Shown piece by piece: positions 1 through 64,000 of a stretch of 64,000 bases of DNA. The position numbers and the translations under genes are program-made. Source of the DNA: Corynebacterium humireducens NBRC 106098 = DSM 45392 (lineage in GTDB: Bacteria > Actinomycetota > Actinomycetes > Mycobacteriales > Mycobacteriaceae); assembly GCF_000819445.1 (NCBI RefSeq), contig NZ_CP005286.1, positions 930,001 to 994,000 of the forward strand. The letters are read 5' to 3'. Position 1 is the stretch's first letter. The number at the start of each line of letters is the position of its first letter. The notes beneath the pieces were generated by a model that was not told the origin of the DNA, searched no databases, and worked only from the letters and a program-made list of their open reading frames with translations.

Positions 1-119
1 ACGCCGCCGGCCCGCCGGTACACGGGCTGCCCGTCCTCCAGATAGAACTCGTCGTGGGTCTCCAGTTGGCCGTGCAGGTCAGCGGTCTGCAGAATGGTCA
101 ATCGGGTTGGGTCGGTCAT
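1..119 (-). CDS. Metallophosphoesterase / 5'-nucleotidase-like protein, N-terminal fragment
   Basis: Only the first 39 codons lie in the window; the rest runs off the left edge. The start MTDPTRLTILQTADLHGQLE resembles the opening of calcineurin-like 5'-nucleotidases and cyclic phosphodiesterases, where an Asp-x-His pair (here D14, H16) binds the first metal ion. A good ribosome binding site (AGGAGG, about 7 bases before the ATG) fixes the start. No signal peptide is visible, so an intracellular enzyme is likely. The assignment rests on the short N-terminal motif alone and could be wrong in detail. It is transcribed away from the toxin-antitoxin operon. Confidence 0.55.
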   Translation of the reverse strand, partial: MTDPTRLTILQTADLHGQLETHDEFYLEDGQPVYRRAGG

Positions 120-210
120 CGTGGAACCTCCTGCGCCCCCACCCTAGTGGTGTGGGTTGGTCGGGGGAAGGCGTCGACCTATTGCAGAATCATGGAACTC
201 ACGTCATGAT

Positions 211-226
211 GTAGGTACGTACCTAC
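211..226. promoter_or_regulatory. Perfect 16-bp palindrome, likely toxin-antitoxin operator
   Basis: GTAGGTACGTACCTAC is a perfect inverted repeat ending 2 bases before the AGGAGG ribosome binding site of the antitoxin gene. Phd/YefM antitoxins are known to repress their own operon by binding short palindromes at the promoter, so this is the natural operator candidate. The binding itself is inferred. Confidence 0.6.
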
Positions 227-238
227 CAGGAGGTGAAT

Positions 239-490
239 ATGACTGTCGTTTCTTCGCGGGACTTCAATCGGGATGTCAGCGCAGCGAAGCGGGCCGCGTC
301 CAAGGGGCCTGTCGTGGTTACCGACAGGGGCGAACCGGCGTTCGTCCTCCTGTCGATAGATGACTACCGACGTCTCACAGGTACCGACTCCGAAGACTCA
401 GCGGAATTCCTCGATAGATTGCAGCTGGACGAGGTCATTGACGTCGAGTTCCCACAAATGGATATCACCTTGAAGGCACCAGATTTCTGA
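239..490 (+). CDS. Type II antitoxin, Phd/YefM family
   Basis: The 83-residue product begins MTVVSSRDFNRDVSAAKRAA and continues with GPVVVTDRGEPAFVLLS-DDYRRL, the usual Phd/YefM DNA-binding fold with a beta strand followed by the ARG-P/AFVL stretch. The C-terminal part (about residues 50-83) is acidic and should wrap the toxin. ATG 239 is chosen because AGGAGG lies 5 bases upstream; an in-frame GTG at 233 overlaps that site and is less likely. The stop overlaps the toxin start (TGATG), so the two are translationally coupled. The antitoxin neutralises the downstream PIN toxin and probably represses the operon through the palindrome at 211-226. Confidence 0.85.
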   Translation: MTVVSSRDFNRDVSAAKRAASKGPVVVTDRGEPAFVLLSIDDYRRLTGTDSEDSAEFLDRLQLDEVIDVEFPQMDITLKAPDF

Positions 491-900: not shown

Positions 901-917
901 CTTAATTGACCGGACTC

Positions 918-1852: not shown

Positions 1853-2367
1853 TCCTTTTCCCGGTTGCGGAAGGCCAGCCGCCGCTCCCACGCCGCGCGC
1901 TGCGCCCGGCCGTGCTCGACCATGACGGGGAACAGCTCCGACTCGGGCAGGGTCTCCCCGGCGTGGGTGAGGGCGGTGGCCATCGTCAGGTACTGGCGTC
2001 GGTAGGACATCCCGAGAACCTGGTCGGCGTAGTCCGTGACCAGCTCGGGGACGACGCTGAGGGTGGTCAGCTCAAGCAGCAGGCGCTTCGCCGTGTGGCG
2101 GGGCAGGGGAGCGGAGTCGCCCATCTCCGACAGTGCCGAGCCGAGGCTGGCGGGGTCGACGGGTTGGTGGGCGCGGCGTCGAGAAGCAAGGAACCCGAAG
2201 AGCCGGCCGTGGTGCGGGTCGTAGAAGTCGCCGGGCTCCAGGACGCGGCACACCTCGTTGCTGGGCGGGTGCTCCTTGCCGGCCCACATGAGTCCGCACA
2301 GCAGGAGCGCCTCCGGGTCGAGCTGTGGTGGGTCCACCCCGAGGAGGGCGTCGTCCTCATCGATCAT
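1849..2367 (-). CDS. Stand-alone DnaB N-terminal-like domain protein
   Basis: The 172-residue protein resembles the N-terminal domain of the replicative helicase DnaB (PQLDPEALLLCGLMW, then EVCRVLEPGDFYDPHHGRLF, then PVDPASL). It stops before any RecA-like ATPase domain, so it is not a helicase. In DnaB this domain mediates hexamer packing and contact with primase. A free copy could bind DnaB or DnaG, but that is inference. ATG 2367 overlaps the upstream amidotransferase-like gene by 4 bases. The rest of the protein (about residues 95-172) is helical and unassigned. Confidence 0.65.
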   Translation of the reverse strand: MIDEDDALLGVDPPQLDPEALLLCGLMWAGKEHPPSNEVCRVLEPGDFYDPHHGRLFGFLASRRRAHQPVDPASLGSALSEMGDSAPLPRHTAKRLLLELTTLSVVPELVTDYADQVLGMSYRRQYLTMATALTHAGETLPESELFPVMVEHGRAQRAAWERRLAFRNREKE

Positions 2368-3047
2368 GCGAGAGCGTCCGCCACCAGTTCGGCGGTCGCC
2401 TTCGCCGACGCCGGGTTCTGCCCGGTGATGAGGGTGCCGTCGGTCACGGTGTACGAGGCGAACGGCAGGGTGGCTTTGCGGTAGTCGGCGCCGCGCTGCT
2501 TCGCCACCTCCTCGACGTTGTAGGGGACAAGCTTATCGACGAGCGCCAGTTTCTCCTCCACCCAGGAGAAACCGGTGAGGGGGCGGGTGTCGATAAGCAG
2601 GGAACCGTCCGACAACCGCGTGTTGAGCAACCCGCAGTAACCGTGGCACACCGCGGCGACGACGCCGCCGGCCTCGACGATCTCCCGGGTGAGCCGCTGG
2701 AGGTCCTCGTTGTCGGGGAAGTCGTACATTGCGCCGTGCCCGCCGGCGAACCAGATGGCGTCGAAGTCGGCGGCGTCGACCTCGGCGGCGGCGGTGGTGG
2801 TGCCGAGCAGCGCCATCTTCGACGGATCGGTGAGCCAGTCCGAGGCGGTCTTCTCCTTGGCGGGGAACGTCAGGGAACGCTTGTCGAGGGGCACGTACCC
2901 GCCGGCCGGGCTGACGATGGTCTGCTCGAAGCCGCGCTCCGCGAAGACCTCCCACGCGTGGGTCAGCTCGGAGAGCCACAGGCCGGTCGTGTCGGAGGGG
3001 TCGTCGAAATGGGCGACGTTGGTGACCACATGGAGGATTCGTGTCAT
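2364..3047 (-). CDS. DJ-1/PfpI family protein (Hsp31-like glyoxalase/deglycase type)
   Basis: The 227-residue protein carries the class I glutamine-amidotransferase-like fold. Visible marks are the FAGGHGAMYDF strand-turn and the nucleophile elbow AAVCHGYCGLL with the likely catalytic Cys-His pair. Sequence features (SPAGGYVPLD, long N-terminal segment) fit the Hsp31/HchA branch, whose members act as glyoxalase III or protein deglycase; the true substrate here is unknown. ATG 3047 is chosen for the ribosome binding site GGGAGGA 7 bases upstream. It is the first gene of a four-gene operon in which every junction is a 4-bp ATGA overlap. Confidence 0.75.
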   Translation of the reverse strand: MTRILHVVTNVAHFDDPSDTTGLWLSELTHAWEVFAERGFEQTIVSPAGGYVPLDKRSLTFPAKEKTASDWLTDPSKMALLGTTTAAAEVDAADFDAIWFAGGHGAMYDFPDNEDLQRLTREIVEAGGVVAAVCHGYCGLLNTRLSDGSLLIDTRPLTGFSWVEEKLALVDKLVPYNVEEVAKQRGADYRKATLPFASYTVTDGTLITGQNPASAKATAELVADALA

Positions 3048-3108
3048 GAGCCCATCCTCCCTGCGCCGGCGGCCGCGTGCCACCGTTTCCGGGAGTACGC
3101 TCAACCTC

Positions 3109-3279: not shown

Positions 3280-3340
3280 ATCCGCCGTTCCCGATGAGCC
3301 GGTCTGGTAGCATCCCTTCTGATCTGTATACCGGTAACCG

Positions 3341-3958: not shown

Positions 3959-3970
3959 TCCTGAGGTCGC

Positions 3971-4508: not shown

Positions 4509-5354
4509 CTGGTCATCGGGCACGTCGCGGCCCACACCTCGACGATCCGCCTCGGCGCGGGTGGTGTCATGCTGCCCAACCACTCCCCGTACATCGTGGC
4601 CGAGCAGTTCGGCACCCTGGAGGAGATGTACCCCGGCCGCATCGGCCTCGGCCGCGCGCCCGGCACCGACCGCACCACCCTGGCCCGCGCGCTGCGCCGC
4701 CCGGTCAACGCCGCGGAGAACTTCCCCTCCGACATCATCGAGCTCGCCCGCTACCTGCAGGGCGAGTCGCTCATCCCCGACGTGCAGGCCATCCCGGGCC
4801 GAGGCACGAACGTGCCCCTCTACATCCTCGGTTCCTCCCTCTACGGCGCGCAGCTGGCCGCCAAGCTGGGCCTGCCGTACTCGTTCGCCTCACACCTGTT
4901 CCCGCCCATGCTCGAGCAGGCCGTCACCGTCTACCGTGAAACGTTCGAACCGTCGGCGCTGATGGACGAGCCCTACGTCATCGCCGCCCTCAACGCGACG
5001 GCCGCCGACACCGAGGAGGAGGCGGCCCGCCTCCACCGGGAGATGGTGCGCCAGCACGTCACCGTCATGCACTTCAACGGCCGTGTCGCCGGGGACGACA
5101 AGATCGACCAGGTCCTGGCCTCCCCGGTGGGACAGCACTACGCCTCCATGCTCGACTACTACGCCGTCGGCACCGGCGAGCAGACCGCCGAGTACCTGGA
5201 GGCCTTCGCCGAGCGCGCGCAGGCCGACGAACTCATGCTGCTGATCAAGGGACCGACCACCCAGACCAACAACCGCACCCTCGAACTCATCGCGCAGGCG
5301 TGGGGCCTGGACCCGGCGACGGCGGCCGGGGACCCGACGACCTGGCGTCGTTAA
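4506..5354 (+). pseudogene. 5'-truncated luciferase-like flavin monooxygenase
   Basis: From about 4506 the sequence encodes the body of an LLM-class flavin-dependent oxidoreductase (LVIGHVAAHTSTIRLGAGGV, then NHSPYIVAEQFGTLEEMYPG). It continues to a normal C terminus at 5354. The first 60-odd residues, which in this family form the first beta strand and the AEHHN-type segment, are missing. The in-frame sequence upstream of 4506 is simply the complement of the regulator remnant. The original pair was evidently divergent, and one deletion removed both 5' ends and the shared promoter. A weak GTG/ATG-initiated product could still be made but should not fold normally. Confidence 0.75.
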
Positions 5355-6214
5355 GCGGACTTCGACTTCTTGGTCGTCTTCTTCGCCGCCTTCTTGGTGG
5401 TCTTCTTGGCAGGCTTCTTCCCGCCGCGCTTCTTGTCGAGCGACGCCTTGAGGGCCTCCATGAGGTCGACGACGTCGGCGTCGTCCGAGTCATCCTCGTC
5501 CGGTTTCTCCCCGAAGGTGGCCTCCGTGTCGAGGGTGTCGCCGGCCTCGAGTTTGGCGTCGATAAGCTTGCGCAGCTCGATCTGATACTCGTCCTCGAAC
5601 GCCTCCGGAGTGAAATCCGAGGCGAACTGATCGACCAGCGCTGCCGACAGTTCGAGCTCCTTGTCGGAGATTTTCGCCCGCGACTTCGTGCCCTTGAAAT
5701 CCACGTCGCGGACCTCATCGGCGCACAAGAGACCCTGCAGGACGAGCACCTTGCCGCGCACCCGCAGCGCACCCAGGCGGGTCTTCTGTCGCAGCGCGAA
5801 CGTGACGATCGCGGTGCGGTCCGTCGCCTCCAGCGTCTGCCGCAGCAGCAGGTAGGACTTCGGCGACTTGCCCTCCGGCTCGAGGAAGTAGCTGCGCTCC
5901 AGCATGATCGGGTCGACCTGCTCGGAGGGGACGAACTGGACGACCTCGATCTCGTTGTTGTCGGCCTCCGGGAGCGCCTCGAAATCCTCGTCGGTGAGGA
6001 CGACGGTGTCCCCGTCCGACTCGTAGGCCTTGTCGATGTTCTTGTAGTCGACCTTCTCGCCGCACACCTCGCAGCGCCGCTCGTAGCGGATCCGGCCGCC
6101 GTCCTTGTCGTGGACCTGGTGGAAGGAGATGTCGTGGTCCTCGACCGCCCCGTAGGCCTTGACGGGGACGTTGACGAGTCCGAACGTGATGGCTCCGGTC
6201 CATACTGCGCGCAT
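5351..6214 (-). CDS. ku: Non-homologous end-joining protein Ku
   Basis: The 287-residue protein starts MRAVWTGAITFGLVNVPVKA, the signature opening of bacterial Ku, and keeps the family core through FALRQKTRLGALRVRGKVLV and the LVDQFASDF region. The last 30 residues are a Lys/Thr/Ala-rich tail (KKTTKKAAKKTTKKSKSA), as in many actinobacterial Ku proteins where the tail helps DNA binding and LigD recruitment. It homodimerises on broken DNA ends. The gene diverges from ligD with only 30 bp between the two starts; TATAAG in that gap is a plausible -10 element for ku. Its stop TAA overlaps that of the truncated monooxygenase gene. Confidence 0.95.
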   Translation of the reverse strand: MRAVWTGAITFGLVNVPVKAYGAVEDHDISFHQVHDKDGGRIRYERRCEVCGEKVDYKNIDKAYESDGDTVVLTDEDFEALPEADNNEIEVVQFVPSEQVDPIMLERSYFLEPEGKSPKSYLLLRQTLEATDRTAIVTFALRQKTRLGALRVRGKVLVLQGLLCADEVRDVDFKGTKSRAKISDKELELSAALVDQFASDFTPEAFEDEYQIELRKLIDAKLEAGDTLDTEATFGEKPDEDDSDDADVVDLMEALKASLDKKRGGKKPAKKTTKKAAKKTTKKSKSA

Positions 6215-6244
6215 AACATGAAGCTTATACAGAAAGGGCAGGCC

Positions 6245-8629
6245 ATGGCGCGAGGCAGGAAGCAGTTTCAGGTCGGCGAGCGCACGCTGTCGGTGAGCAA
6301 CCTCGACAAGGTGCTTTACCCGGCCACGGGCACGACGAAGGCCGATGTCATCCACTACTACCTCAGCGTCGCCGAGGTGATCATCCCGCAGCTCACCCGC
6401 CGTCCCGTCACCCGTAAAAGGTGGGTCGACGGGGTCGGCACCGAGGAAGAGCCGGGGCAGGTGTTCTTCCGCAAGGATCTGGAGGATTCGGCGCCCAGCT
6501 GGATCCCGACCGGCAGGATCGCGCACAAGACCTCCACCAACCACTACCCGCTGGCCGAGGAACCGGGCGTCCTGGCCTGGTTCGGGCAGGTCGCCGCCCT
6601 CGAGCTCCACGCCCCGCAGTGGCGTTTCGGCGCCAACGGCCAGCCCCGCAACCCCGACCGGCTGGTGCTCGACCTCGACCCGGGCGAGGGGGTGGGGCTG
6701 CGCGACTACGCGGCGCTCGACGGCACCCACAACTCCGAGACGATCTCCCAGGTGGCCCGCGAACTGGCCCGCGGCCTGGAGTCCGATCACCCGGATGAGG
6801 TGATCTCCACGATGAAGACGGCCGACCGCGCCGGGAAGGTGTTCATCGACTGGTCGCAGAACAACGCCTCCAAGACCACCGTCAGCCCGTACTCCCTGCG
6901 CGGTCGCCTGCGGCCCACGGTCGCCGCACCCCGTACCTGGGAGGAGCTGGCGGACCCGGACCTGCGGCACCTCGAGTACGAGGAGGTCCTCGAGCGGGTC
7001 GCCGAGGGGCTTGATCCGCTGGAGCCCCTGCGCGCCGACCCCTCCGAGACCCCCGACCGGCTGAGCACCTACCGCTCCATGCGCGATCCCTCGAAGACGG
7101 CGGAGCCGGTGCCGGAGGAGCGGCCGACGGCGCGTGCGGACGGTGAGCCGACCTTCGTCATCCAGGAGCACCACGCCCGCCGCCTGCACTGGGATTTCCG
7201 CCTCGAGCACGACGGGGTGCTCGTCTCCTGGGCGGTACCGAAGGGCCCGCCGCTGGACCCCTCCCTCAACCGCCTGGCCGTGCAGACCGAGGACCATCCC
7301 CTGGAGTACGGCACCTTCGAGGGGATCATCGCGAAGGGGGAGTACGGCGCCGGCGAGGTGAGCATCTGGGATGCGGGCACCTGCGAGATCGAGAAGTGGC
7401 GCGCGGGCAAGGAGGTCATCGCCGTCCTGCACGGCCGCCCCGACGGTGGGCTGGGTGGTGTGCCGCGCCGCTACGCCCTCATCCACGCCCCGGGCATGGG
7501 GGAGGAGAAGCACTGGTTGCTGAAGTTCATGAAGGATCAGCCCGACGATGCTTCTCGACGCCCCGCCGATCCCGCTCCCAGCGAGAAGGCTGAGGTCGCT
7601 GAGTCCCCTGCCGCCCGCCCGGCGTTCGGCGTCGCGGACCTGCCGTCCCCGATGCTCGCCACCCCGGGCACCCCGGCCGACATCAAGCTCGGCGTGCAGG
7701 ACGGGGAGGAGTGGGTCTTCGAGATGAAGTGGGACGGCTACCGCATCATTGCGGGAGTGGGCGTCGGGACGGGGGACGGCCGGGTGGTGTTGGCCAGCCG
7801 CAACGGTCACGACTACACGGCGCTGTTCCCGCAGGCTGGGGAGCTGGTGGAGCTGCTGCAGGGCCCGGCCGCGGAGGCCGGTGGGGCGGTGTTCGACGGG
7901 GAGCTGGTGGCCCTCGACGACCGCGGCCGCCCCGACTTCGGGCTGCTGCAGGCCGCCGCCAAGGGGGAGGCCGGGGACGTGACGTTGCGCTACATGGTCT
8001 TCGACATCCTCCAGCTCGGCGCGCCGGGTGACCAGGACGCGAGTCCGCAGCTGCGGACTCCGTACCGTCAGCGCCGCGAACTCCTGCGCGAGGTGCTGGC
8101 GGAGGGTGAGCACGTCACCGTCCCTCCCGCGCACACCGGGAGCCTGGCCCAGGCGGAGAAGATCAGCCGCGAGCTGGCGCTGGAGGGGCTGGTGGCCAAA
8201 CGCGCCGACTCTACCTACCTGCCCGGTAAGCGGGGCAAGGCGTGGCTGAAGCTGAAGACGCAGCTGCACCAGGAGGTGGTGGTGATCGGTGCCCGCCACG
8301 GCAAGGGCGGGCGCGCCGGCGGGATCGGTTCGCTGCTGCTGGCGGTGCCGGACGCCGACGGTCAGCTGCGCTACGCCGGCCGCGTCGGCACCGGCTTCAC
8401 CGCCGCGCAGCTGGGGGACATCGAGAAGACCCTGCGCCGGATCGAGCGCAAGACCCCGCCGGTCGACGACGTGCCGGCGGCGGACCAGTCCGACGCGTGG
8501 TTCGTCACCCCGAAGCTTGTCGGGGAGGTGTCCCTGGCAGGCCGGACGCGTGAGGGGCGGGTACGCCAGGCCGCGTGGCGCGGGTGGCGTGCGGACAAGA
8601 GCCCCGACGAGGTGCGCTGGGAGGTGTAG
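6245..8629 (+). CDS. ligD: Multifunctional ATP-dependent DNA ligase LigD with an internal deletion in the polymerase domain
   Basis: The 794-residue protein has the mycobacterial order polymerase, phosphoesterase, ligase. The polymerase domain (about 1-255) retains the metal pair in VLDLDPGEG and the third acidic residue in KVFIDWSQN. At residues 153-158, RDY runs straight into AALDG. In relatives about 30-35 residues lie here, including the SGSKGLH nucleotide-binding motif. The phosphoesterase domain (about 290-440) keeps HHARRLHWDFRLEHDG. The ligase domain keeps the adenylation motif KWDGYR (K495) and ELALEGLVAKRAD. End joining by the ligase should therefore work, while gap filling is probably lost. 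A 20-bp palindrome (8041-8060) lies in a ligase-domain loop. ATG 6245 follows AAAGGGCAGG. Confidence 0.93.
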   Translation: MARGRKQFQVGERTLSVSNLDKVLYPATGTTKADVIHYYLSVAEVIIPQLTRRPVTRKRWVDGVGTEEEPGQVFFRKDLEDSAPSWIPTGRIAHKTSTNHYPLAEEPGVLAWFGQVAALELHAPQWRFGANGQPRNPDRLVLDLDPGEGVGLRDYAALDGTHNSETISQVARELARGLESDHPDEVISTMKTADRAGKVFIDWSQNNASKTTVSPYSLRGRLRPTVAAPRTWEELADPDLRHLEYEEVLERVAEGLDPLEPLRADPSETPDRLSTYRSMRDPSKTAEPVPEERPTARADGEPTFVIQEHHARRLHWDFRLEHDGVLVSWAVPKGPPLDPSLNRLAVQTEDHPLEYGTFEGIIAKGEYGAGEVSIWDAGTCEIEKWRAGKEVIAVLHGRPDGGLGGVPRRYALIHAPGMGEEKHWLLKFMKDQPDDASRRPADPAPSEKAEVAESPAARPAFGVADLPSPMLATPGTPADIKLGVQDGEEWVFEMKWDGYRIIAGVGVGTGDGRVVLASRNGHDYTALFPQAGELVELLQGPAAEAGGAVFDGELVALDDRGRPDFGLLQAAAKGEAGDVTLRYMVFDILQLGAPGDQDASPQLRTPYRQRRELLREVLAEGEHVTVPPAHTGSLAQAEKISRELALEGLVAKRADSTYLPGKRGKAWLKLKTQLHQEVVVIGARHGKGGRAGGIGSLLLAVPDADGQLRYAGRVGTGFTAAQLGDIEKTLRRIERKTPPVDDVPAADQSDAWFVTPKLVGEVSLAGRTREGRVRQAAWRGWRADKSPDEVRWEV
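8041..8060. repeat. 20-bp perfect palindrome, copy 2
   Basis: GAGTCCGCAGCTGCGGACTC, identical to 1231-1250. Here it encodes part of the peptide DASPQLRTP in the LigD ligase domain. Relatives have a shorter loop there, as far as I can judge from family knowledge. Confidence 0.8.
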
Positions 8630-10135: not shown

Positions 10136-11329
10136 ATGCGTCGAATCCTCGCCCTGTCCCTATCCGCGGTCCTGCTCAGCGGCTGCACCTCGGAACCCGC
10201 GGAGGTGCCACCGCCCACGGAGGGGGCCACGGTGTCGCCGGCGACGGTGGACCCGGAGCTTGTCGAAGAAGAGGAGGAGGGCGCGGAGGTCGCCGGCACC
10301 CCGGAGCCGGTCGCCCTCGACGACGCCACCCGCGAGTTCACCGTCGACGAGCACGGCAGCTTCAACACCGGGTGGGCGATGACCTTCCTGCCGGGCACCG
10401 ACCATCTGCTCATCGCCGAGCGCCGCGGCGCGCTGCAGCTGCGGGACCAGACGACCGGCAAGGTCACGGAGGTCACCGGTCTGCCGCCCGTGCACGCGCA
10501 GGGGCAGGCGGGCATGCACGACATCATCCCCGGACCCACCTTCGAGCAGGACGGCATGGTCTACCTCAGCTGGGTCCGGTCCCACACCAACGGTGCGCAG
10601 GGGGTCGTGGGTCGCGCGTACCTGGACATGGACCGGCATCAGTTGACGGGGCTGCAGGAGATCTGGGAGCAGACCCCGGCCGCCGGCAACGGCCATCTCT
10701 CGCTGCGCCTGCTCATTGACGACGGCCACCTCTACGTCACCTCCGGCGACCGGCAGGAGATGACCCCCGCGCAGGAGAACGACACGAACCTCGGTTCCGT
10801 CCTGCGCCTCACCCTCGACGGGCAGCCGGCGCCGGGCAACCCGTGGGACACCGAGCAGTGGACGATGGGACACCGCAACGCGTTGGGCATCGACACCGAC
10901 GACCAGGGGCGCATCTGGGTCTCGGAGATGGGCCCGCAGGGCGGCGACGAACTCAACCTGCTGGTCGAGGGCGACAACTACGGGTGGCCGGAGGCGTCGA
11001 TGGGCGTGCACTACAACAACGACCCCATCCCCGACCACAGCGACGACGACGGTTTCCACGGCCCCGCCGCATGGTGGGTGCCGTCGATCTCGCCCGGCAA
11101 CCTCCTCATCTACTCCGGGGAGCTTTTCGACGGCTGGTCGAACTCCGCCCTCCTCGGCGGATTGTCCGGCGAGAAGATCGTCCGGGTGGAGCTCGGCGAG
11201 CCGGCGACGGTCGTCGACGAATGGGAGATGGGCGCGCGCATCCGGGCGCTGGCCGAGGCACCCGACGGGGCGATCTGGGTGCTGGAGGACGGCCCGGCCG
11301 GCAGACTGCTGGAGCTGCGCCCGGCCTGA
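10136..11329 (+). CDS. PQQ-dependent aldose sugar dehydrogenase (YliI/Asd family) lipoprotein
   Basis: The 397-residue product starts MRRILALSLSAVLLSGCTSE, a lipoprotein signal with the Cys in LSGC. An acidic linker and a six-bladed soluble glucose-dehydrogenase-like propeller follow. Recognisable pieces are NTGWAMTFLPGTDHLLIAER, the active-site His region GQAGMHDIIPGP, YLSWVR, the GHLSLRLLIDDGHLYVTSGD segment and MGHRNALGIDTDDQGRIWVS. The family oxidises aldoses with pyrroloquinoline quinone and calcium; actinobacterial homologues may use other cofactors. TAGTGT lies 6 bases before the ATG and no ribosome binding site is present, so translation is probably leaderless. The last 220 bp are overlapped antisense by the CPBP gene. 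Confidence 0.85.
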   Translation: MRRILALSLSAVLLSGCTSEPAEVPPPTEGATVSPATVDPELVEEEEEGAEVAGTPEPVALDDATREFTVDEHGSFNTGWAMTFLPGTDHLLIAERRGALQLRDQTTGKVTEVTGLPPVHAQGQAGMHDIIPGPTFEQDGMVYLSWVRSHTNGAQGVVGRAYLDMDRHQLTGLQEIWEQTPAAGNGHLSLRLLIDDGHLYVTSGDRQEMTPAQENDTNLGSVLRLTLDGQPAPGNPWDTEQWTMGHRNALGIDTDDQGRIWVSEMGPQGGDELNLLVEGDNYGWPEASMGVHYNNDPIPDHSDDDGFHGPAAWWVPSISPGNLLIYSGELFDGWSNSALLGGLSGEKIVRVELGEPATVVDEWEMGARIRALAEAPDGAIWVLEDGPAGRLLELRPA

Positions 11330-14415: not shown

Positions 14416-15123
14416 ATGACAACAAACGTGCTGCCTGACCTGGACTGGAGTGCTTTCCGACGCGTCCTCATCGTCGTCGCGCACCCCGACGACGCCGAGT
14501 ACGGCCTCTCCTGCGCCGTCGACATGTGGACCCGCGCCGGGGTGGAGGTCGGCTACCTGCTGCTCACCCACGGCGAGGCCGGCATCCGTCACCTCGACCC
14601 CGCCGAGACCGGCCCCCTGCGCGCCGAGGAGCAGCGGCAGGCCTGCGCCTGCGTCGGCGTCACCGACCTCACCCTGCTGGACCACCCCGACGGCCAGCTC
14701 ATGGACTCGCTGGAACTGCGCCGCGACATCGCCCGCCACATCCGGCAGTTCCGGCCGGACACCGTCATCACCGCCAACTTCGACCTCGAGGCCTACGGCT
14801 CCTACAACCAGGCCGACCACCGCGTCGCGGGTCTCATGACCGTCGACGCCGTCCGCGACGCCGACAACCCGTGGATCCACCGGGACCTGGACCTGCCGGC
14901 GCACAAGGCTCAGCGGCTGCTCGTCGCCAACGCCGGTGACGCCACCCACCGCGTCACCGTCGACGAGAAGGCCGTGGAGGCGGGCATCGAGTCGCTGAGC
15001 CGCCACAAGGTCTACTTCGAGGCACTGCCGGACCATCCGGCGCCCGCGGACTTCATCCCCATGATGCTGGAGCAGCCCGACGGCGCGCAGGCCGTGCACT
15101 TCCGGGTGTTCGACCCGATCTAG
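14416..15123 (+). CDS. PIG-L family deacetylase
   Basis: The 235-residue protein carries the zinc-binding motif AHPDDAEYG near residue 25, the second ligand region NQADHR (about 134-139), and an Asp/His-rich core typical of LmbE/PIG-L N-acetylglucosaminyl deacetylases. Substrates in the family include GlcNAc-inositol, bacillithiol precursors and antibiotics, so the substrate is unknown. It is distinct from the true mshB at 52866, so a mycothiol step is less likely, although mycothiol-conjugate amidase (mca) belongs to the same fold. TAGAGT lies 7 bases before the ATG: probable leaderless transcript. The gene converges on the methyltransferase gene with a 4-bp gap. Confidence 0.8.
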   Translation: MTTNVLPDLDWSAFRRVLIVVAHPDDAEYGLSCAVDMWTRAGVEVGYLLLTHGEAGIRHLDPAETGPLRAEEQRQACACVGVTDLTLLDHPDGQLMDSLELRRDIARHIRQFRPDTVITANFDLEAYGSYNQADHRVAGLMTVDAVRDADNPWIHRDLDLPAHKAQRLLVANAGDATHRVTVDEKAVEAGIESLSRHKVYFEALPDHPAPADFIPMMLEQPDGAQAVHFRVFDPI

Positions 15124-52869: not shown

Positions 52870-53777
52870 CGACCCGTGATCTGGTCGGCTACCGCGTGGT
52901 GGCCGTCCATGCACACCCCGACGACGAGGCCATCACCACCGGTGGCTCCCTCTTCGACCTGGCGCGCCGGGGTGCCGACGTCCTCGTCGTCACCTGCACC
53001 CTCGGTGAGGAGGGCGAGGTCATCGGCGCCCCGTTCGCGCACCTGACCAACGACCACGCCGACCAGCTCGGCGGCTTCCGCATCGGGGAACTCACCCGGG
53101 CCCTGGAGATCCTCGGGGTGCGCGGCCGCTTCCTCGGCGGGGCGGGCCGGTTCCGTGACTCCGGCATGGCCGGCAGCCCGGCGCACGAGAACCCCCGGGC
53201 CTTCGTCAACTCCGGCGACGAGGCCGTCGAGCTGCTCACCCGCATCCTCGAGGCGGAGCGCCCCCACCTGCTCATCACCTACGGGCCCGACGGCGGCTAC
53301 GGCCACCCCGACCACATTCGGGCCCACGAGATCACCCACGCCGCCGCCGGGCGCGTCACCGTCCCCCGCATCCTGTGGACCGTGAGCTCCCTGCCGGAGA
53401 CCCGGGAGGGCGTCGACCGGATCACGCAGGTCCCGGAGGGCTGGACTCTGCCGCCGCAGGAGTACCTGGAGAACGCGGGCGTCGAGAAGCACGACCTCGT
53501 GGTCACCCTCGACGACGCCGCCCTGGCCGCCAAGCGGGAGGCCATGCGCGCGCACGCGACGCAGATCTGGTTCGCGGACGGGTCCGTGTCCGCCACCAAC
53601 CCGCGCGCCGCGTGGGGGCAGGGCGCGCACCCCGTGTGGGCGCTGTCCAACCTGTACGCCCAGCCGCTGCTGGGCCGCGAGCACTACCAGCTCGGCGCCG
53701 GCAGCCTCCCGGAGGCGGACCTGCTCGGCGGACCCGGACTGCTCGACGGTCTCGCCCGAGACGGAGAGCCCGCATGA
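52866..53777 (+). CDS. mshB: N-acetyl-1-D-myo-inositol-2-amino-2-deoxy-alpha-D-glucopyranoside deacetylase MshB
   Basis: The 303-residue zinc enzyme removes acetate from GlcNAc-inositol, the second committed stage of mycothiol synthesis. Motifs: AVHAHPDDEAITTGG with the catalytic Asp, GEEGEVIGAPFAHLTNDHAD, and the third zinc ligand in GYGHPDHIRAHEI. Length and motifs match mycobacterial MshB. It starts inside the lpqW stop (ATGA) and its own stop overlaps the membrane protein gene in the same way. Confidence 0.95.
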   Translation: MTTRDLVGYRVVAVHAHPDDEAITTGGSLFDLARRGADVLVVTCTLGEEGEVIGAPFAHLTNDHADQLGGFRIGELTRALEILGVRGRFLGGAGRFRDSGMAGSPAHENPRAFVNSGDEAVELLTRILEAERPHLLITYGPDGGYGHPDHIRAHEITHAAAGRVTVPRILWTVSSLPETREGVDRITQVPEGWTLPPQEYLENAGVEKHDLVVTLDDAALAAKREAMRAHATQIWFADGSVSATNPRAAWGQGAHPVWALSNLYAQPLLGREHYQLGAGSLPEADLLGGPGLLDGLARDGEPA

Positions 53778-54555: not shown

Positions 54556-55668
54556 GTGGCCCGCTCGTCCCTGGGCGCCCGTCTGCCCGACTTCCCCTGG
54601 GACACCCTCGACGCCGCGAAGGCGACCGCCGAGGCGCACCCGGACGGGATCGTGAACCTGTCCGTCGGCACCCCCGTCGACCCGGTCGCGCCGGGCATCC
54701 AGCTGGCCCTCGCGGCGGCCGCCGCGGAACCCGGCTACCCGCAGACCGCGGGCACCCCGGAGCTGCGGGAGGCGATCGCGGCCTCGCTGGAGCGCCGCCA
54801 CAACATGAGGGGCCTGACCCGCGACGCCGTGCTGCCGGTCGTGGGCACCAAGGAGGCCATCGCGCTGCTGCCCACGCTGCTGGGCATCCGTGAGGGCTTC
54901 GTGGTCATCCCCGAGGTCGCGTACCCCACCTACGAGGTGGCGGCGCTGCTGGCCTCCAACCGGGTGCTGCGCGCCGACTCTCTGCTGCGGATCGGCCCGG
55001 AGAAGCCCGACCTGCTGTTCCTCAACTCGCCGTCCAACCCGACGGGCAAGGTCCTCGGCGTCGAGCACCTGCGCAAGGTCGTCGGCTGGGCACGGGAGCG
55101 CGGCGTCATCGTCGCCTCCGACGAGTGCTACATCGGACTCGGCTGGGACGACGAGAAGGAGCCCGTCTCCATCCTCGACCCGCGTGTCTGCGACGGCGAC
55201 CACACCGGCCTCATCGCCATCCACTCGCTGTCGAAGAGCTCCAACCTGGCGTCCTACCGCGCCGGTTTCCTCGCCGGTGACCGCGCGCTCATCTCCGAGC
55301 TCCTCGAGGTGCGCAAGCACCTCGGCCTCATGGTGCCCGGCCCGGTCCAGGAGGCCATGCTCGTCGCCCTCGCGGACGACGACCAGGAGGCCGGTCAGCG
55401 TGTCCTCTACGGTCGCCGTCGCGCGGTGCTCATGCGGGCGCTTCTCGACGCCGGGTTCACCGTCGACGACTCCGAGGCCGGCCTCTACCTGTGGGCCACC
55501 CGCGGCGAGCACTGTCGCGACACCGTCGACTGGCTGGCGGAGCGGGGCATCCTCGTCGCCCCCGGCGACTTCTACGGCCCCCGCGGCGAGCAGTACGTCC
55601 GCGTGGCGCTGACCGGCACGGACGAGCGCATCGCCGCCGCCGCGGCCCGCCTCACCACCGGTGTGTAG
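54556..55668 (+). CDS. dapC: Succinyldiaminopimelate aminotransferase DapC
   Basis: The 370-residue PLP enzyme (aminotransferase class I) has VVGTKEAIALLPTLLG, FLNSPSNPTGKVLG, the aspartate segment VASDECYIGLGWD and the PLP lysine in SLSKSSNLASYRAGF. It converts N-succinyl-2-amino-6-ketopimelate to N-succinyl-LL-diaminopimelate on the way to lysine and peptidoglycan. Start is GTG 54556, 3 bp after fdxC. The position between fdxC and the dapD/dapE block is the known actinobacterial order. Confidence 0.95.
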   Translation: MARSSLGARLPDFPWDTLDAAKATAEAHPDGIVNLSVGTPVDPVAPGIQLALAAAAAEPGYPQTAGTPELREAIAASLERRHNMRGLTRDAVLPVVGTKEAIALLPTLLGIREGFVVIPEVAYPTYEVAALLASNRVLRADSLLRIGPEKPDLLFLNSPSNPTGKVLGVEHLRKVVGWARERGVIVASDECYIGLGWDDEKEPVSILDPRVCDGDHTGLIAIHSLSKSSNLASYRAGFLAGDRALISELLEVRKHLGLMVPGPVQEAMLVALADDDQEAGQRVLYGRRRAVLMRALLDAGFTVDDSEAGLYLWATRGEHCRDTVDWLAERGILVAPGDFYGPRGEQYVRVALTGTDERIAAAAARLTTGV

Positions 55669-56500
55669 CGCCCCGGTCCCCGCGCGGGAGGGCATCTCCC
55701 CGCAGCGGGTCGTGCTGCGCGACGTCGTCCCCGCGGACCGGGAGTACTGGGCCGGTGCCGCCGGCGACGCCCCCTTCCCCTTCGGCACGCCCCTGGTGGC
55801 GGGGGCGACGCTGGACCGCCCACAGCCCGCGTGGTTCCACCCTGACGTCCCGCCCGAGCCGGAGATCCCCTTCCGGCACACCGTGCTCTTCGCGGACGAG
55901 GACCTCATCGTGGTGGACAAGCCGGGCTTCGTGCCGTCGACGAGCAACGGACGCATCGTCCGCGAGACGGTGCAGACCCGCCTCCGCGTCGAGTTCGGTG
56001 AGGACGAGATCGTGCCCCTGCACCGCCTCGACCGGCTGACCTCCGGGGTGCTCGTGTGCTCGCGGCGCGCCGCGACGCGGGGCTCCTACCAGCGGCTGTT
56101 CCAGGAACGGGCCGTCGAGAAGCTCTACGTGGCGCGCGTGGACGGGCCTGTGACCGTGGGGCCGGAGTGGGAGCCCGTGGCACTGCCGATGCGCAAGGAA
56201 CGGGGCGCCCGGCAGGTGACGGTGGGGGAGGGCGGCACGGAGACGCTGACGTGGCTGCGCGCGGTGGGGCCCGACACCGTGGAGGTGCGGCCCGTCACCG
56301 GGCACACGCACCAGATCCGCGTCGTGCTCAACCACCTGGGCATGCCGATCATGGGCGACGACACCTACCCCGTGGACCGGGGGCTCGCACTCTACGACTA
56401 CAGCTCGCCGCTGGCGCTGCGGGCCGTGGCGGTGGCCTTCGACGATCCGCACCGCGGTAGTCGCCGGGTCTTCCGCGTCGGTGGGGCAGGCGGGTTGTAG
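55661..56500 (+). CDS. RluA-family pseudouridine synthase
   Basis: The 279-residue protein has the RluA catalytic motif HRLDRLTSGVLV (catalytic Asp), the HTHQIRVVLNHLGMPIMGDD segment near the C terminus and no S4 domain. It isomerises uridine in rRNA or tRNA; the exact site cannot be told. The GTG start at 55661 overlaps the dapC stop by 8 bp, so it is translated with dapC. The C terminus carries a short GGAGGL tail whose bases also hold a TAGGCT-like promoter element for gtrA. Confidence 0.9.
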   Translation: MCSAPVPAREGISPQRVVLRDVVPADREYWAGAAGDAPFPFGTPLVAGATLDRPQPAWFHPDVPPEPEIPFRHTVLFADEDLIVVDKPGFVPSTSNGRIVRETVQTRLRVEFGEDEIVPLHRLDRLTSGVLVCSRRAATRGSYQRLFQERAVEKLYVARVDGPVTVGPEWEPVALPMRKERGARQVTVGEGGTETLTWLRAVGPDTVEVRPVTGHTHQIRVVLNHLGMPIMGDDTYPVDRGLALYDYSSPLALRAVAVAFDDPHRGSRRVFRVGGAGGL

Positions 56501-57142: not shown

Positions 57143-57148
57143 CCTGCG

Positions 57149-59496: not shown

Positions 59497-59562
59497 ACCT
59501 GTCGAGAATAATGCCCGGGGCAGGTGCCCCCGCGCTCAGCCCCTGCGTGGGCGGGGCCGGGA

Positions 59563-60492: not shown

Positions 60493-60558
60493 GTCTCCAG
60501 AGTCTACGGCCCTCCGTACCCGTACACACGTTGAGTCGCCGTGGGTACCCTTGGTCAG

Positions 60559-61635
60559 GTGACCGCACTCGATCTCACCCAGGATCCCGTTGCCCTGACC
60601 GCCGCGCTGGTGGACATCCCCAGCCCCTCCCACCAGGAGCGTGCCCTCGCTGATCTGGTGGAGCAGGCGCTTGCCGACGTCCCCTTCGTCCGCGTCCTCC
60701 GGAGGGGCAACACCGTCGCCGCCCGGACCGAACGCGGGAGGAGGTCACGGGTCATCCTCGCCGGTCACCTGGACACGGTGCCCATCGCCGACAACGTCCC
60801 CCACCGCCTCGAGGACGGCGTCATGTACGGCTGCGGCACCGTCGACATGAAGTCGGGGCTGGCGGTGTACCTGCACCTGTTCGCCACCCTTGCCGCCGAC
60901 CCGGACCTGGCCTACGACCTCACGCTCATCGCCTACGAGTGCGAGGAGGTCGACAGCCAGTACAACGGGCTGGGCCACTTGGCGGTCAGTGACCCGGAGT
61001 GGCTCGACGGGGAGCTGGCCCTGCTCGGGGAGCCCTCCGGCGCGATCATCGAGGCCGGCTGCCAGGGCACCCTCCGCGTGCGGGTGACCACCCGCGGCCA
61101 ACGTGCCCACTCCGCCCGGGGGTGGCTCGGCGACAACGCCGCCCACCGGCTCGCCCCGGCGATCCAGAAGGTCGCCGAGTGGCAGGGCCGCGAGGTCGAC
61201 ATCGACGGCCTGGTCTACCGGGAGGGCCTCAACGTGGTGAAGCTGGAGAGCTACGTCGCGACCAACATCATCCCGGACGAGGCGTATGCGCTGGTGAACT
61301 ACCGTTTCGCGCCGGACCTGACGGCGGAGGAGGCGTTCGGGCGCGTCGAGAGGCACCTCGCGGGTTTCGAGGTGACGCTGGAGGACGCCGTCGCCGGGGC
61401 GCTGCCCGGCCTGGAGAAGCCCGCCGCGGCGGCGCTGATCCGGACGGTGGGGGAGGTGCGGGCGAAGTACGGGTGGACCGACGTCGCGCGTTTCGCCGGT
61501 CTGGGGATCGCCGCCGTGAACTTCGGGCCGGGCGACCCCGCCTTCGCCCACCGGAAGGACGAGCATGTCCCGGTGTCGCAGATCCGGCGGGTGGCGGCGC
61601 AGCTGCGTGATTTCCTCACCACCCGCCCCACCTGA
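60559..61635 (+). CDS. dapE: Succinyl-diaminopimelate desuccinylase DapE
   Basis: The 358-residue M20 metallopeptidase has the zinc ligands in GHLDTVP, CGTVDMKSG, YECEEVDSQYNGLG, and a histidine in the C-terminal DPAFAHRKDEHVP segment. RGQRAHSARGWLGDNAAHRL is the dimerisation-domain lid. It releases succinate from N-succinyl-LL-DAP, completing the succinylase branch with DapD and DapC. TACCCT is exactly 7 bases before GTG 60559, a leaderless start. The product is of normal length for actinobacterial DapE. Confidence 0.95.
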   Translation: MTALDLTQDPVALTAALVDIPSPSHQERALADLVEQALADVPFVRVLRRGNTVAARTERGRRSRVILAGHLDTVPIADNVPHRLEDGVMYGCGTVDMKSGLAVYLHLFATLAADPDLAYDLTLIAYECEEVDSQYNGLGHLAVSDPEWLDGELALLGEPSGAIIEAGCQGTLRVRVTTRGQRAHSARGWLGDNAAHRLAPAIQKVAEWQGREVDIDGLVYREGLNVVKLESYVATNIIPDEAYALVNYRFAPDLTAEEAFGRVERHLAGFEVTLEDAVAGALPGLEKPAAAALIRTVGEVRAKYGWTDVARFAGLGIAAVNFGPGDPAFAHRKDEHVPVSQIRRVAAQLRDFLTTRPT

Positions 61636-61674
61636 TCCGGCAGGCGCATCAGGAACGCGCTAGGTTTGAGGACT

Positions 61675-62511
61675 ATGGCTCCGAACATCACACCCGATCC
61701 CGACAAGGCCCGGATGCTGCGCGGCCCCATGCTGCTGCGCACTGACGGGGCGAAGAAGTCCACCTACGACCAGCGACTGCTGGAACTCGGGTCGGACCAC
61801 GACTGGCTGCATGCGGACCCGTGGCGCATCCTGCGCATCCAGGGTGAGTTCGTCTCCGGTTTCGACGCCCTGGCCTCCATGCCGAAGGCCGTCACCGTCT
61901 TCGGTTCCGCCCGCATCCCGGAGGGGCACCCCTGGTACCAGCAGGGTTGTGACCTCGGTAAGGCGCTCGTGGCGGCCGACTACGCCGTCATCACCGGCGG
62001 TGGCCCCGGCCTCATGGAGGCCCCGAACCGGGGTGCCCATGAGTCGGACGGCCTGTCCGTCGGCCTGGGCATCGAGCTCCCGCACGAGCAGCACCTCAAC
62101 AAGTGGGTCGACCTCGGTCTGAACTTCCGCTACTTCTTCGCCCGCAAGACCATGTTCCTCAAGTACTCGCAGGCGTTCATCTGTCTGCCGGGTGGTTTCG
62201 GCACCCTCGACGAGCTCTTCGAGGTGCTGTGCATGGTGCAGACGGGCAAGGTGACCAACTACCCGATCGTGCTGCTGGGCACCGAGTTCTGGGGTGGTCT
62301 CATCGACTGGATCCGCGAGCGTCTCGCGGCCGAGGGACTCATCTCCCCGCAGGACATGGACCTGTTCCTCGTCACCGACTCCGTCGAGGAGGCCGTGCAG
62401 CACATCGTCGACGCACACGGCGTCATGACCGACGAGCGGCTGGCCAACGCCACCCAGGTCGACGAGTACACCCCTGTCCACGAGGTTCTCGAGCAGGCCG
62501 ACCGCCGCTGA
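61675..62511 (+). CDS. LOG-family protein (TIGR00730, phosphoribohydrolase type)
   Basis: The 278-residue Rossmann-fold protein has the LOG motifs: AVTVFGSARIPEGHPWYQQG, ITGGGPGLMEAPNRGAHE and CLPGGFGTLDELFE. Related enzymes cut nucleoside 5'-monophosphates to base and ribose 5-phosphate, including cytokinin activation; the actinobacterial physiological substrate is unsettled. TAGGTT is 8 bases before ATG 61675. It stands between dapE and folP2 as in other corynebacteria. Confidence 0.9.
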   Translation: MAPNITPDPDKARMLRGPMLLRTDGAKKSTYDQRLLELGSDHDWLHADPWRILRIQGEFVSGFDALASMPKAVTVFGSARIPEGHPWYQQGCDLGKALVAADYAVITGGGPGLMEAPNRGAHESDGLSVGLGIELPHEQHLNKWVDLGLNFRYFFARKTMFLKYSQAFICLPGGFGTLDELFEVLCMVQTGKVTNYPIVLLGTEFWGGLIDWIRERLAAEGLISPQDMDLFLVTDSVEEAVQHIVDAHGVMTDERLANATQVDEYTPVHEVLEQADRR

Positions 62512-62519
62512 CGTCTTCC

Positions 62520-63359
62520 GTGAACAGTCCTGCTTTGCCGGCGGTGATGGCGATCGTCAACCGCACCCCGGACTCCTTCTACGACCGGGGCGCCACCTTC
62601 GCCGACGAGGCCGCGCTGCGCCGCTGCGACGAGGTCATCGCCCAGGGGGCGACGATCGTCGACATCGGCGGCGTCAAGGCCGGCCCCGGGTCGCCTGTCG
62701 ACGTCGCCGAGGAACTCGACCGCGTCATCCCCGTCATCGCGGCCGTCGCGCAGCGTCACCCGGACGTGCTGATCTCCGTGGACACGTGGCGGGCCTCGGT
62801 GGCCGACGAGGCCATCCGCGCCGGTGCCGGCCTGGTCAACGACACGTGGGCCGGGTACGACCCGGAGCTCGTCGAGGTCGCCGGTCAGCACCGCGTCGGC
62901 TACGTCTGCTCGCACACCGGCGGGGTCGAGCCCCGCACGAGGCCGCACCGCGTGCGTTTCGACGACGTCGTGGCCGACGTCATCGCCGAGACCACCCGCC
63001 TGGCCGAACGCGCCGTCAGCTGTGGTGTGCCGGAGGAGAGGATCTTCCTCGACCCGACGCACGACTTCGGCAAGAACACCTTCCACGGACTCGAGCTGCT
63101 GCGTCGTGTCGACGAGATCGTCGCCACCGGGTGGCCCGTCCTCATGGCCCTGAGCAACAAGGACTTCGTCGGTGAGACCGTCGACCGGCCGGTGGGGGAG
63201 CGCATCCCCGGCACCCTGGCCGCCACCGCCTGGGCCGCCGCCCGCGGGGTCGCGGCCTTCCGCGCCCACGAGGTTGCCGAGACCGTCGACGTCATCCGCA
63301 TGACCGCCGCCATCGCGGGCACCGCGGCCCCGCTCAACACGATCCGGGGTCTCGCGTGA
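62520..63359 (+). CDS. folP2: Dihydropteroate synthase homologue FolP2
   Basis: The 279-residue TIM-barrel protein has the DHPS motifs NRTPDSFYDRG, VDIGGVKAGPGS, VSVDTWRAS-like ISVDTWRAS, NDTWAG and DPTHDFGKN. FolP2-type proteins of mycobacteria lie beside gpgS and are poorly active or inactive in folate synthesis, so a non-folate role is likely. GTG 62520 has no obvious ribosome binding site; ATG 62547 is too late since it would start inside the first motif strand. Its stop overlaps gpgS (GTGA). Confidence 0.92.
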   Translation: MNSPALPAVMAIVNRTPDSFYDRGATFADEAALRRCDEVIAQGATIVDIGGVKAGPGSPVDVAEELDRVIPVIAAVAQRHPDVLISVDTWRASVADEAIRAGAGLVNDTWAGYDPELVEVAGQHRVGYVCSHTGGVEPRTRPHRVRFDDVVADVIAETTRLAERAVSCGVPEERIFLDPTHDFGKNTFHGLELLRRVDEIVATGWPVLMALSNKDFVGETVDRPVGERIPGTLAATAWAAARGVAAFRAHEVAETVDVIRMTAAIAGTAAPLNTIRGLA

Positions 63360-64000
63360 GGGTCTCGGTGGTCATCCCGGCGCTCAACGAGGAGGCCACC
63401 GTCGCCGGGGTCATCGCCGCCGTGCGGGCCGACGACCCCCACGAGATCCTCGTCATCGACGCCGACTCCTCCGACGCCACCGCCCGCGAGGCGCGGGACG
63501 CCGGTGCGACGGTGCTCAACTGGCGGGAGATCCTCCCGCACATCCCCACCCGCCCCGGCAAGGGGGAGTCCCTGTGGCGGGGCGTGGCTGCCGCGACGGG
63601 CGACGTCGTCGTCTTCGTCGACGCCGATCTGCGTCAGCCCGCGCCGGGCATGGTCCGGGCGTTGTCCGCCCCCTTCTCCGACCCGGGCGTCCATCTGGTC
63701 AAGGCCGATTACCGACGCACCTTCCGCGGGGAACCCACCGGAGGCGGCCGTGTGACAGAACTCACGGCCAAGCCCCTGCTGCGTGCCCTGTTCCCCGAAC
63801 TGGGGCACATCAACCAGCCCCTGGCCGGCGAGTACGCCCTCCGCCGCGCCACCGCCCTCGAGCTGCCCTTCACCGCCGGCTACGGCGTCGAGGCGGGACT
63901 GCTTGTCGACGTCGCCCGCCGCCACGGCCCCGACGCCGTCACGCAGGTCGACCTGGGGGTGCGCCGCCACCGTAACCGCCCTCTCGCCGAGCTGGGCCCG
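63356..64000 (+). CDS. gpgS: Glucosyl-3-phosphoglycerate synthase GpgS (3' end beyond the window)
   Basis: The first 215 codons are present and the frame is still open at the right edge. This GT-A glycosyltransferase has VVIPALNEEATVAGVI, the metal-binding DAD in VFVDADLRQP, HLVKADYRRTF, TGGGRVTELTAKPLLRALFP and the acceptor-site GYGVEAGLLVDVARRHG. It makes glucosyl-3-phosphoglycerate, the primer of methylglucose lipopolysaccharides. The GTG start overlaps the folP2 stop, so the two are co-translated. The DADLRQP form differs from the usual D-DLINP, but the aspartates are conserved. Confidence 0.93.
   Translation, partial: MRVSVVIPALNEEATVAGVIAAVRADDPHEILVIDADSSDATAREARDAGATVLNWREILPHIPTRPGKGESLWRGVAAATGDVVVFVDADLRQPAPGMVRALSAPFSDPGVHLVKADYRRTFRGEPTGGGRVTELTAKPLLRALFPELGHINQPLAGEYALRRATALELPFTAGYGVEAGLLVDVARRHGPDAVTQVDLGVRRHRNRPLAELGP

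Follow-up and report, generated by a model that had tools for sequence, protein, structure and literature searches.

The window analysed here, a stretch of 64,000 nucleotides of the genome of Corynebacterium humireducens NBRC 106098 = DSM 45392 (contig NZ_CP005286.1, genome positions 930001-994000), carries in great excess the short word GTCGANAAGC, which in our assessment is probably a DNA uptake sequence (DUS), a genus-wide tag that would mark DNA as 'self'. Abundance, origin at the level of DNA, conservation, dialects with a switch in place, absence from whole lineages and scarcity in phages together match what is seen for uptake sequences. Most of the measurements fit this reading; the alternation of site orientation is better explained by a Chi-like recombination site, an explanation that itself fails in one class of genomes.

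Abundance of the word and its origin at the level of DNA

The window (69.8% G+C) holds 31 exact copies of GTCGANAAGC, 14 on the forward and 17 on the reverse strand, against an expectation of 0.44 from dinucleotide shuffles, the maximum among 100 of which was 2. At the variable position N, G is found 19 times, C 6 times, T 4 times and A twice. The over-representation and the strand balance reported in the first-pass annotation are thus confirmed, and its list of 30 sites holds at nearly all positions, except that one reverse-strand copy (24533) had been missed and three starts need correction (34019 to 34009, 50390 to 50380 and 27348 to 27349). The complete genome of 2,681,312 bp contains 475 + 525 = 1,000 copies, compared to 13 + 23 = 36 of the reversed word. 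In a 464-kb sample (the window and 20 further stretches, each of 20 kb), 204 copies were found where Markov models of orders 2 to 5 predict 3.8, 8.4, 10.5 and 19.4, respectively, the model of order 5 already including much of the word.

The flanks of these 204 sites extend the word, with C at position -1 in 98% and G at position -3 in 86%. Four one-base variants (GTCGANGAGC, GTCGGNAAGC, GTCGANACGC and GTCGTNAAGC) are clearly above expectation in the same sample, a few of the remaining ones are slightly above it and the others are near it. The element is approximately GNCGTCGANAAGC, also written GNC(G/A)TCGNNAAGC, and GTCGANAAGC is one dialect of it; the first-pass annotation had correctly read the word as a DNA signal but had not recognised this wider element. 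Genomes with the CGTCG form are called G-type here, and those with the CATCG form A-type or CATCG-type. The wider form CGTCGNNAAGC occurs 1,438 times in the genome of the window (control 56), pooling it with GTCGANAAGC yields 39 sites in the window, and the mean gap between sites is 1,628 bp (504 kb of this genome).

The word is a DNA signal and not a product of codon context. Among the 286 CGTCGNNAAGC sites in the 504 kb, 255 lie inside called genes (the calls come from a simple model, not an annotation) and 31 outside. On the coding strand, 171 of the 255 genic sites present the GCTTNNCGACG form and 84 the sense form, and the earlier claim that coding strands prefer the GCTTNTCGAC form was likewise upheld (140 vs 62 in 452 called genes). 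One could attribute the excess to codon context, protein motifs or mutation, acting in the absence of any reader protein, given that 217 of the 255 genic sites share one codon phase and that the sense form, which reads Val-Glu-Lys, is partly expected (33.6 of 84). However, shuffling of synonymous codons (60 runs) gave the GCTTNNCGACG form 3.9 times on average (largest 8) vs 171 observed, and the sense form 33.6 times (largest 46) vs 84; a shuffle that also holds neighbouring dinucleotides (60 runs) raised these means only to 7.5 (largest 14) and 36.0 (largest 45). By these means, some 35 of the sense-form sites can be put down to ordinary coding, mostly of Val-Glu-Lys. The main form, moreover, requires the rare codon CTT, which makes up 2.0% of leucine codons and lies inside the word in 156 of 291 cases, and 128 of the 239 Leu-[LFIV]-Asp-[AVDGE] peptides carry the word. 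Since the sites also occur in several frames and outside called genes, are conserved and have changed dialect in place (see below), such an effect is very improbable as the explanation. Markov expectations and synonymous shuffles together rule out base composition and protein motifs as the main cause, and codon context, one of the candidates of the first-pass annotation, is rejected in that role. What stands from that annotation is the notion of a distributed DNA signal, for which an uptake-type sequence was already listed among the candidates.

The 39 sites of the window are given below as window coordinates, strand, sequence and class; those of the wider form only are not exact copies of GTCGANAAGC.

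2177..2187, forward, CGTCGAGAAGC, exact word
2531..2541, reverse, CGTCGATAAGC, exact word
2589..2598, forward, GTCGATAAGC, exact word, without the preceding C
5346..5356, forward, CGTCGTTAAGC, wider form only
5557..5567, forward, CGTCGATAAGC, exact word
7550..7560, reverse, CGTCGAGAAGC, exact word
11122..11132, reverse, CGTCGAAAAGC, exact word
13377..13387, forward, CGTCGAGAAGC, exact word
14452..14462, reverse, CGTCGGAAAGC, wider form only
15490..15500, forward, CGTCGAGAAGC, exact word
16671..16681, forward, CGTCGACAAGC, exact word
16728..16738, forward, CGTCGAGAAGC, exact word
17149..17159, reverse, CGTCGACAAGC, exact word
21028..21038, reverse, CGTCGAGAAGC, exact word
22600..22610, forward, CGTCGACAAGC, exact word
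23699..23709, reverse, CGTCGAGAAGC, exact word
24533..24543, reverse, CGTCGAGAAGC, exact word, absent from the earlier list
25874..25884, reverse, CGTCGAAAAGC, exact word
27021..27031, forward, CGTCGGGAAGC, wider form only
27348..27358, forward, CGTCGAGAAGC, exact word
29885..29895, reverse, CGTCGACAAGC, exact word
31150..31160, forward, CGTCGTCAAGC, wider form only
31488..31498, reverse, CGTCGAGAAGC, exact word
31689..31699, forward, CGTCGGAAAGC, wider form only
34009..34018, reverse, GTCGAGAAGC, exact word, without the preceding C
35530..35540, forward, CGTCGATAAGC, exact word
42442..42452, reverse, CGTCGAGAAGC, exact word
44199..44209, forward, CGTCGAGAAGC, exact word
45499..45509, forward, CGTCGACAAGC, exact word, arm of a close inverted pair
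45517..45527, reverse, CGTCGAGAAGC, exact word, arm of a close inverted pair
49374..49384, forward, CGTCGGCAAGC, wider form only
50380..50390, reverse, CGTCGAGAAGC, exact word
51866..51876, reverse, CGTCGCGAAGC, wider form only
52230..52240, reverse, CGTCGAGAAGC, exact word
53480..53490, forward, CGTCGAGAAGC, exact word
55440..55450, reverse, CGTCGAGAAGC, exact word
56113..56123, forward, CGTCGAGAAGC, exact word
60669..60679, reverse, CGTCGGCAAGC, wider form only
63901..63911, reverse, CGTCGACAAGC, exact word

The inverted pair at 45499-45527, whose arms start 18 bp apart, may form a hairpin; close pairs of this kind are rare here.

Conservation, dialects and distribution

The sites are conserved beyond the surrounding sequence. 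At the topA/Tad locus, 244 of 285 site comparisons among six loci of the tuberculostearicum group (two of them identical) were kept vs 131.1 expected, and 50 of 91 were kept vs 22.0 expected among the genome of the window, C. pollutisoli, a metagenome-assembled genome and C. lemuris, with the expectation taken from composition-matched windows and the comparisons overlapping at this one locus. In so far as the synonymous shuffles and this comparison between species address the refuting outcomes named in the first-pass annotation, neither outcome was observed. Conservation at the sites is accompanied by a change of dialect in place: KPL1814, C. macginleyi and G001, a clade that is sister to the tuberculostearicum group, use CATCG. 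Ten CGTCGNNAAGC copies of C. tuberculostearicum were aligned with KPL1814, where eight of them read CATCGNNAAGC and retain their inner bases. When four reference loci were pooled, CGTCG at motif heads had become CATCG in KPL1814 in 33 of 40 comparisons and was still CGTCG in 0 of 40, vs 74 of 290 retained and 60 of 290 turned into CATCG for CGTCG outside the motif, while C. macginleyi showed 17 CATCG and 16 CATCA among 40 motif heads; these comparisons rest on about ten distinct sites. Such a near-total change at one base would be the expected effect of a changed reader.

Across 242 Corynebacterium genomes, GTCGANAAGC ranges from 8 to 1,570 copies, and in genomes rich in it the two strands carry nearly the same number. 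With abundance set at no less than 3x control and at least 150 copies, CGTCGNNAAGC is abundant in 171 of the 242 (195-1,964 copies, median 1,090), and 13 others carry 307-754 copies of GCTTGNCGATG (= CATCGNCAAGC) in its place, with both words present in G024. Neither word was found at these thresholds in 58 genomes, 6 of which have a weak CGTCGNNAAGC excess (2-3x control or fewer than 150 copies) and a few of which (e.g. G032, G156 and G185) show the CATCG form in weak excess. Scans for enriched words in genomes with low or intermediate counts revealed GCTTGNCGATG in G001, G096 and G106 and different preferences at the inner two bases (N-C in G105 and G184, T-N in G005). Among 20 low genomes scanned in this way, a strong dispersed word emerged in G012 only, which uses CGCGNCGTCAT (23 copies in 60 kb, where 0.5 would be expected), perhaps a distant dialect that has GNCGTC in common with the main word; a GC-rich palindrome was seen in G206, and the other low genomes gave weaker excesses, low-copy palindromes or repeats. 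As separate observations, the palindromic CTCGNCGAG(G) is strongly in excess in G206 (75% GC, without the main word), and the palindromes ACAGATCTGT in G227 and GGAGTACTCC in G032 each occur 6 times in 40 kb, vs 0.01 and 0.07 expected, respectively. In the rest of the order, no genome exceeded 2.2x control (GTCGANAAGC in 149 genomes, CRTCGNNAAGC in 60 of these), and for CRTCGNNAAGC none of the 60 sampled non-Corynebacterium genomes reached 2x control.

Species names were assigned through topA loci, and whole-genome counts of CRTCGNNAAGC were taken for 31 of the 80 loci. The word is abundant in C. pilosum (1,969), C. halotolerans (1,949), C. pollutisoli (1,637), C. gallinarum (1,335), C. striatum (1,262), C. 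silvaticum (1,162), C. tuberculostearicum (1,009) and C. pseudodiphtheriticum (1,004), as well as in KPL1814 (1,064) and C. macginleyi (532), both of CATCG type as judged from 23-kb loci. A weak excess of 2-3x control was seen in C. pygosceleis (144) and C. meridianum (157), and counts were below 2x control in C. jeikeium (107), C. variabile (143), C. falsenii (60), C. phocae (75), C. kalidii (89), Dietzia (142) and Rhodococcus triatomae (293). Copies of CGTCGNNAAGC number 1,183 in G065, which we take to be C. glutamicum ATCC 13032, 1,454 in G234 (presumably C. vitaeruminis), 895 in G039 (by our assignment C. diphtheriae NCTC 11397) and 63 (control 74) in G227 (presumably C. urealyticum); industrial C. 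glutamicum is apparently among the carriers. In a topA tree of 78 rows, carriers of the word fall on either side of the deepest division within the genus (branch supports 94 and 86), and the dialects broadly agree with descent. The three states of the word require 11 changes on this tree, the states having been taken from ~20-kb loci or genome counts, with C. pseudokroppenstedtii (323 copies genome-wide) scored as none.

Phages are poor in the word. CGTCGNNAAGC occurs once in BFK20, once in P1201 (first 50 kb), not at all in phi674, and twice each in Zion (first 50 kb) and Adelaide, with chance levels of 0.07-0.75 each. The three phages of C. glutamicum (for BFK20 the host name given is Brevibacterium flavum) thus have 2 copies in 136 kb, a length that would hold 48.6 if they were as dense in the word as G065, and Zion has 2 copies in 50 kb vs 24.8 expected at that of G234. 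Similarly, the poorest of 23 stretches of the genome of the window, 670001-690000 with 3 sites in 20 kb, is a prophage that encodes head, portal and tail proteins besides a transposase. No Corynebacterium plasmid was present among the best 40 of 94 matches to a phage RepA-like protein.

Placement, orientation and the putative reader

With the origin taken at coordinate 1, the 504 kb revealed no replichore bias (78 forward and 83 reverse sites in 0-1.34 Mb, 62 and 63 in the rest) and no origin-to-terminus polarity of the kind that FtsK-orienting polar sequences (KOPS) have, nor was a trend from origin to terminus evident across the 23 stretches. These data bear on the idea that the word is bound by a protein of chromosome organisation, replication or methylation that would require many scattered sites at high density. 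Conservation, occurrence on both strands and genome-wide spread speak for such a site, whereas the lack of replichore skew and of an origin-to-terminus trend, the non-palindromic nature of the word, its absence, by the thresholds applied here, from 58 of the 242 genomes and the joint change of bases at the sites of one clade speak against it. We judge it unlikely, and the nucleoid or segregation site listed among the first-pass candidates has lost ground through the lack of replichore bias, the absence of the word from many lineages and the change of dialect in place.

Orientation is nevertheless not random along the chromosome. Sites alternate in orientation in the genome of the window (79 vs 42 in 224 kb, p 0.001; also 139 vs 88) and in G071 (86 vs 41 in 240 kb), and eight further G-type genomes gave 109 alternations vs 57, with G200 alone showing the opposite (8 vs 11); in 90 control 8-mers alternation averaged 46%, with a maximum of 58%. 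No alternation was detected in five CATCG-type genomes (62 vs 71), and the result for the own word of G012 is unclear (16 vs 10). As alternation runs counter to the coding-strand bias, operons should not be its cause. Gaps between sites on the same strand are evener than chance, with a coefficient of variation (CV) of 0.83 in the genome of the window (null 0.98, p 0.028; 224 kb) and of 0.62 in G071 (p<0.0005; 240 kb), and gaps between all sites are evener in G071 (CV 0.76, p 0.001) but not in the genome of the window (CV 1.08). Consistently, strand counts across the 171 genomes are more equal than binomial (sum 107.0 vs 171 expected, p 3e-5), the same sum for the reversed word being 279.3 for 242 genomes.

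This pattern is what a Chi-like site would produce, at which an AdnAB-type helicase-nuclease, on meeting the word in one orientation while processing a double-strand break, ceases degradation and loads the recombinase: if the enzyme reads in an orientation-specific manner, each strand would need its own regularly spaced copies. The alternation in G-type genomes, the even same-strand gaps and the equal strand counts all agree with such a site, as do the few copies in phages, comparable to phage lambda, which lacks Chi, and the presence of PDDEXK_1 nucleases in 80 of 80 genomes. However, the PDDEXK_1 family is also present in genomes that lack the word; a word of 11-13 bp with a gap and no replichore bias is unlike known Chi sites, which measure 5-8 bp and in Escherichia coli favour the leading strand; absence from lineages and a change of dialect inside one genus would be odd for a core repair enzyme; and CATCG-type genomes show no alternation. 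On balance we regard a Chi-like site as an improbable explanation, if slightly less so than a chromosome-organising site.

For the DUS reading, we infer a receptor, a bias in uptake and natural transformation of these species. In the mechanism that we propose, a DNA receptor on or beside a Tad/Flp pilus or the ComEA-ComEC machine would bind double-stranded DNA containing the element, and tagged fragments would preferentially be taken up and recombined. Each round of transformation would import further tagged fragments, by which sites would spread and persist at about 1 per 1.6 kb in the genome of the window. If the specificity of the receptor drifted, the sites would follow, giving rise to dialects, and loss of specificity or of transformation would lead to decay of the sites.

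Machinery that could support this route is widespread. A ComEC family match was found in 241 of 242 Corynebacterium genomes (it is split in two pieces in G014, G090 and G229, and has an internal TGA in G123), a T2SSE (TadA type) ATPase in 80 of 80 and HHH_3 matches in 80 of 80, the best usually being a longer protein; among the matches listed, a ComEA-sized HHH_3 protein is present in at least 71 of 80. In the genome of the window, comEA, comEC and a holA-like gene are consecutive. The Tad locus comprises genes that we take to be ssd, tadA, tadB, tadC, flp, tadE and tadF on the basis of order, size and family matches. As com and tad genes are also present in wordless species, they are compatible with uptake without proving it, and presence of ComEC, TadA-type ATPase, T2SSF, HHH_3 or PDDEXK_1 was discarded as a predictor of the word, failing to separate the genomes. 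The 25 weakest of the 80 TadA matches all lie in low genomes, and in nine of these genomes, all without the word (G007, G037, G045, G049, G050, G080, G213, G230 and G241) both T2SSF domains are in one open reading frame of 353-384 aa, the Tad locus of G007 being otherwise syntenic with that of the genome of the window. However, the genomes with low TadA matches on the topA tree (G007, G018, G120 and C. falsenii) fall in one clade, and a link between weak TadA matches and lack of the word was set aside as confounded by descent. The same confounding applies to TadE-like genes, which blastp found at 40 of the 44 G-type loci, all 5 A-type loci and 13 of the 23 loci without the word, and to TadF-like genes (36, 5 and 14, respectively). 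Ssd, TadA and TadB showed one or two weak dialect-linked columns, as did helicase and TopA, which served as controls.

Several observations weigh against an uptake sequence. First, the com and tad genes do not discriminate between genomes with and without the word, no dialect-linked residues were found in Flp, TadC, TadE or TadF, and ten low genomes picked for a full-length TadA match revealed no strong word. Second, the one HHH_3 match listed for G128, which has the CATCG word, lies in a frame of 789 aa, more than a ComEA would have. Third, alternation in G-type genomes is not predicted by orientation-indifferent uptake, and closely spaced inverted pairs are scarce (of 263 gaps in the 504 kb, 6 lie between opposite strands and measure <100 bp). 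Fourth, phage Adelaide (host C. xerosis) has 3 copies of GTCGANAAGC vs 0.3 expected, a number that is still far below host-like density. Finally, searches of the open-licence PubMed Central (PMC) literature brought up no account of Corynebacterium being naturally transformed. On the other hand, in another actinobacterium, Micrococcus luteus, Tad/Flp pili are needed for transformation according to the excerpted text of PMC4322843.

Relation to known systems and implications

The closest parallel is the DUS of Neisseriaceae, likewise described, in the portions of PMC3630211 and PMC2397512 consulted, as a short non-palindromic word with many copies at about 1 per 1-2 kb (spacing ~1,150-1,500 bp in PMC2397512), with dialects that lie 1-2 bases apart and follow the species tree, and with sites that are more conserved than their surroundings and under-represented in strain-specific insertions. 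The Corynebacterium word differs in belonging to an unrelated genus, in its association with genes that would encode a Tad/Flp pilus rather than a type IVa pilus, in the lack of a ComP-like receptor among our findings, and in its two-base gap, few inverted pairs and G-type alternation. The uptake signal sequence (USS) of Pasteurellaceae, a different word, offers a second comparison (excerpts of PMC1939737, PMC2346458 and PMC1626085). Excerpts of PMC1939737 describe uptake by Haemophilus influenzae as indifferent to orientation and USS spacing as even (citing Karlin 1996), yet less even than a compaction signal would be, and in PMC12616744 the USS receptor is a predicted one. Close inverted USS pairs are common as terminators in Haemophilus, and inverted pairs that act as terminators, frequent but non-essential in DUS and USS, are not typical of the Corynebacterium word.

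Among other dispersed words, the Chi sites of RecBCD and AddAB are likewise over-represented and oriented, but they are shorter and, in E. coli, skewed by replication, in contrast to the unskewed Corynebacterium word with its dialects within one genus. HIP1 of cyanobacteria is likewise a hyper-abundant short word in coding DNA, but it is a palindrome. No earlier description of the word or of uptake sequences in Corynebacterium was found in the listed titles and opening lines of abstracts of open-licence PMC papers, and the part of a spaced-motif screen (PMC5217627) that we consulted gives only clustered regularly interspaced short palindromic repeat (CRISPR) pairs for three Corynebacterium genomes.

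In either reading, a signal of about 1,000 copies exists in a much-studied genus for which the literature found holds no description of it. Were it a Chi-like site, it would be unusual in its abundance and in the speed with which it changes inside a single genus. If it is an uptake sequence, it would be the first known to us in a Gram-positive genus. A fuller proposal, to which we give somewhat less than even credence, is that of a Corynebacterium DUS that is the first in Gram-positive or mycolate bacteria, old in the genus and independent of those of Neisseria and Haemophilus, that acts through a Tad/Flp-pilus or ComEA route and that, in CGTCG-type species, has an orientation-sensing reader keeping evenly spaced sites on each strand. 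An uptake sequence would imply sequence-specific natural transformation in a large genus that comprises commensals, pathogens and strains used in industry, and would provide a simple competence test for C. glutamicum. Corynebacterium cells have a mycolic-acid outer layer, and uptake sequences would have arisen there for a third independent time. The dialects would then act as mating barriers and give a handle on gene flow between the species of the genus.

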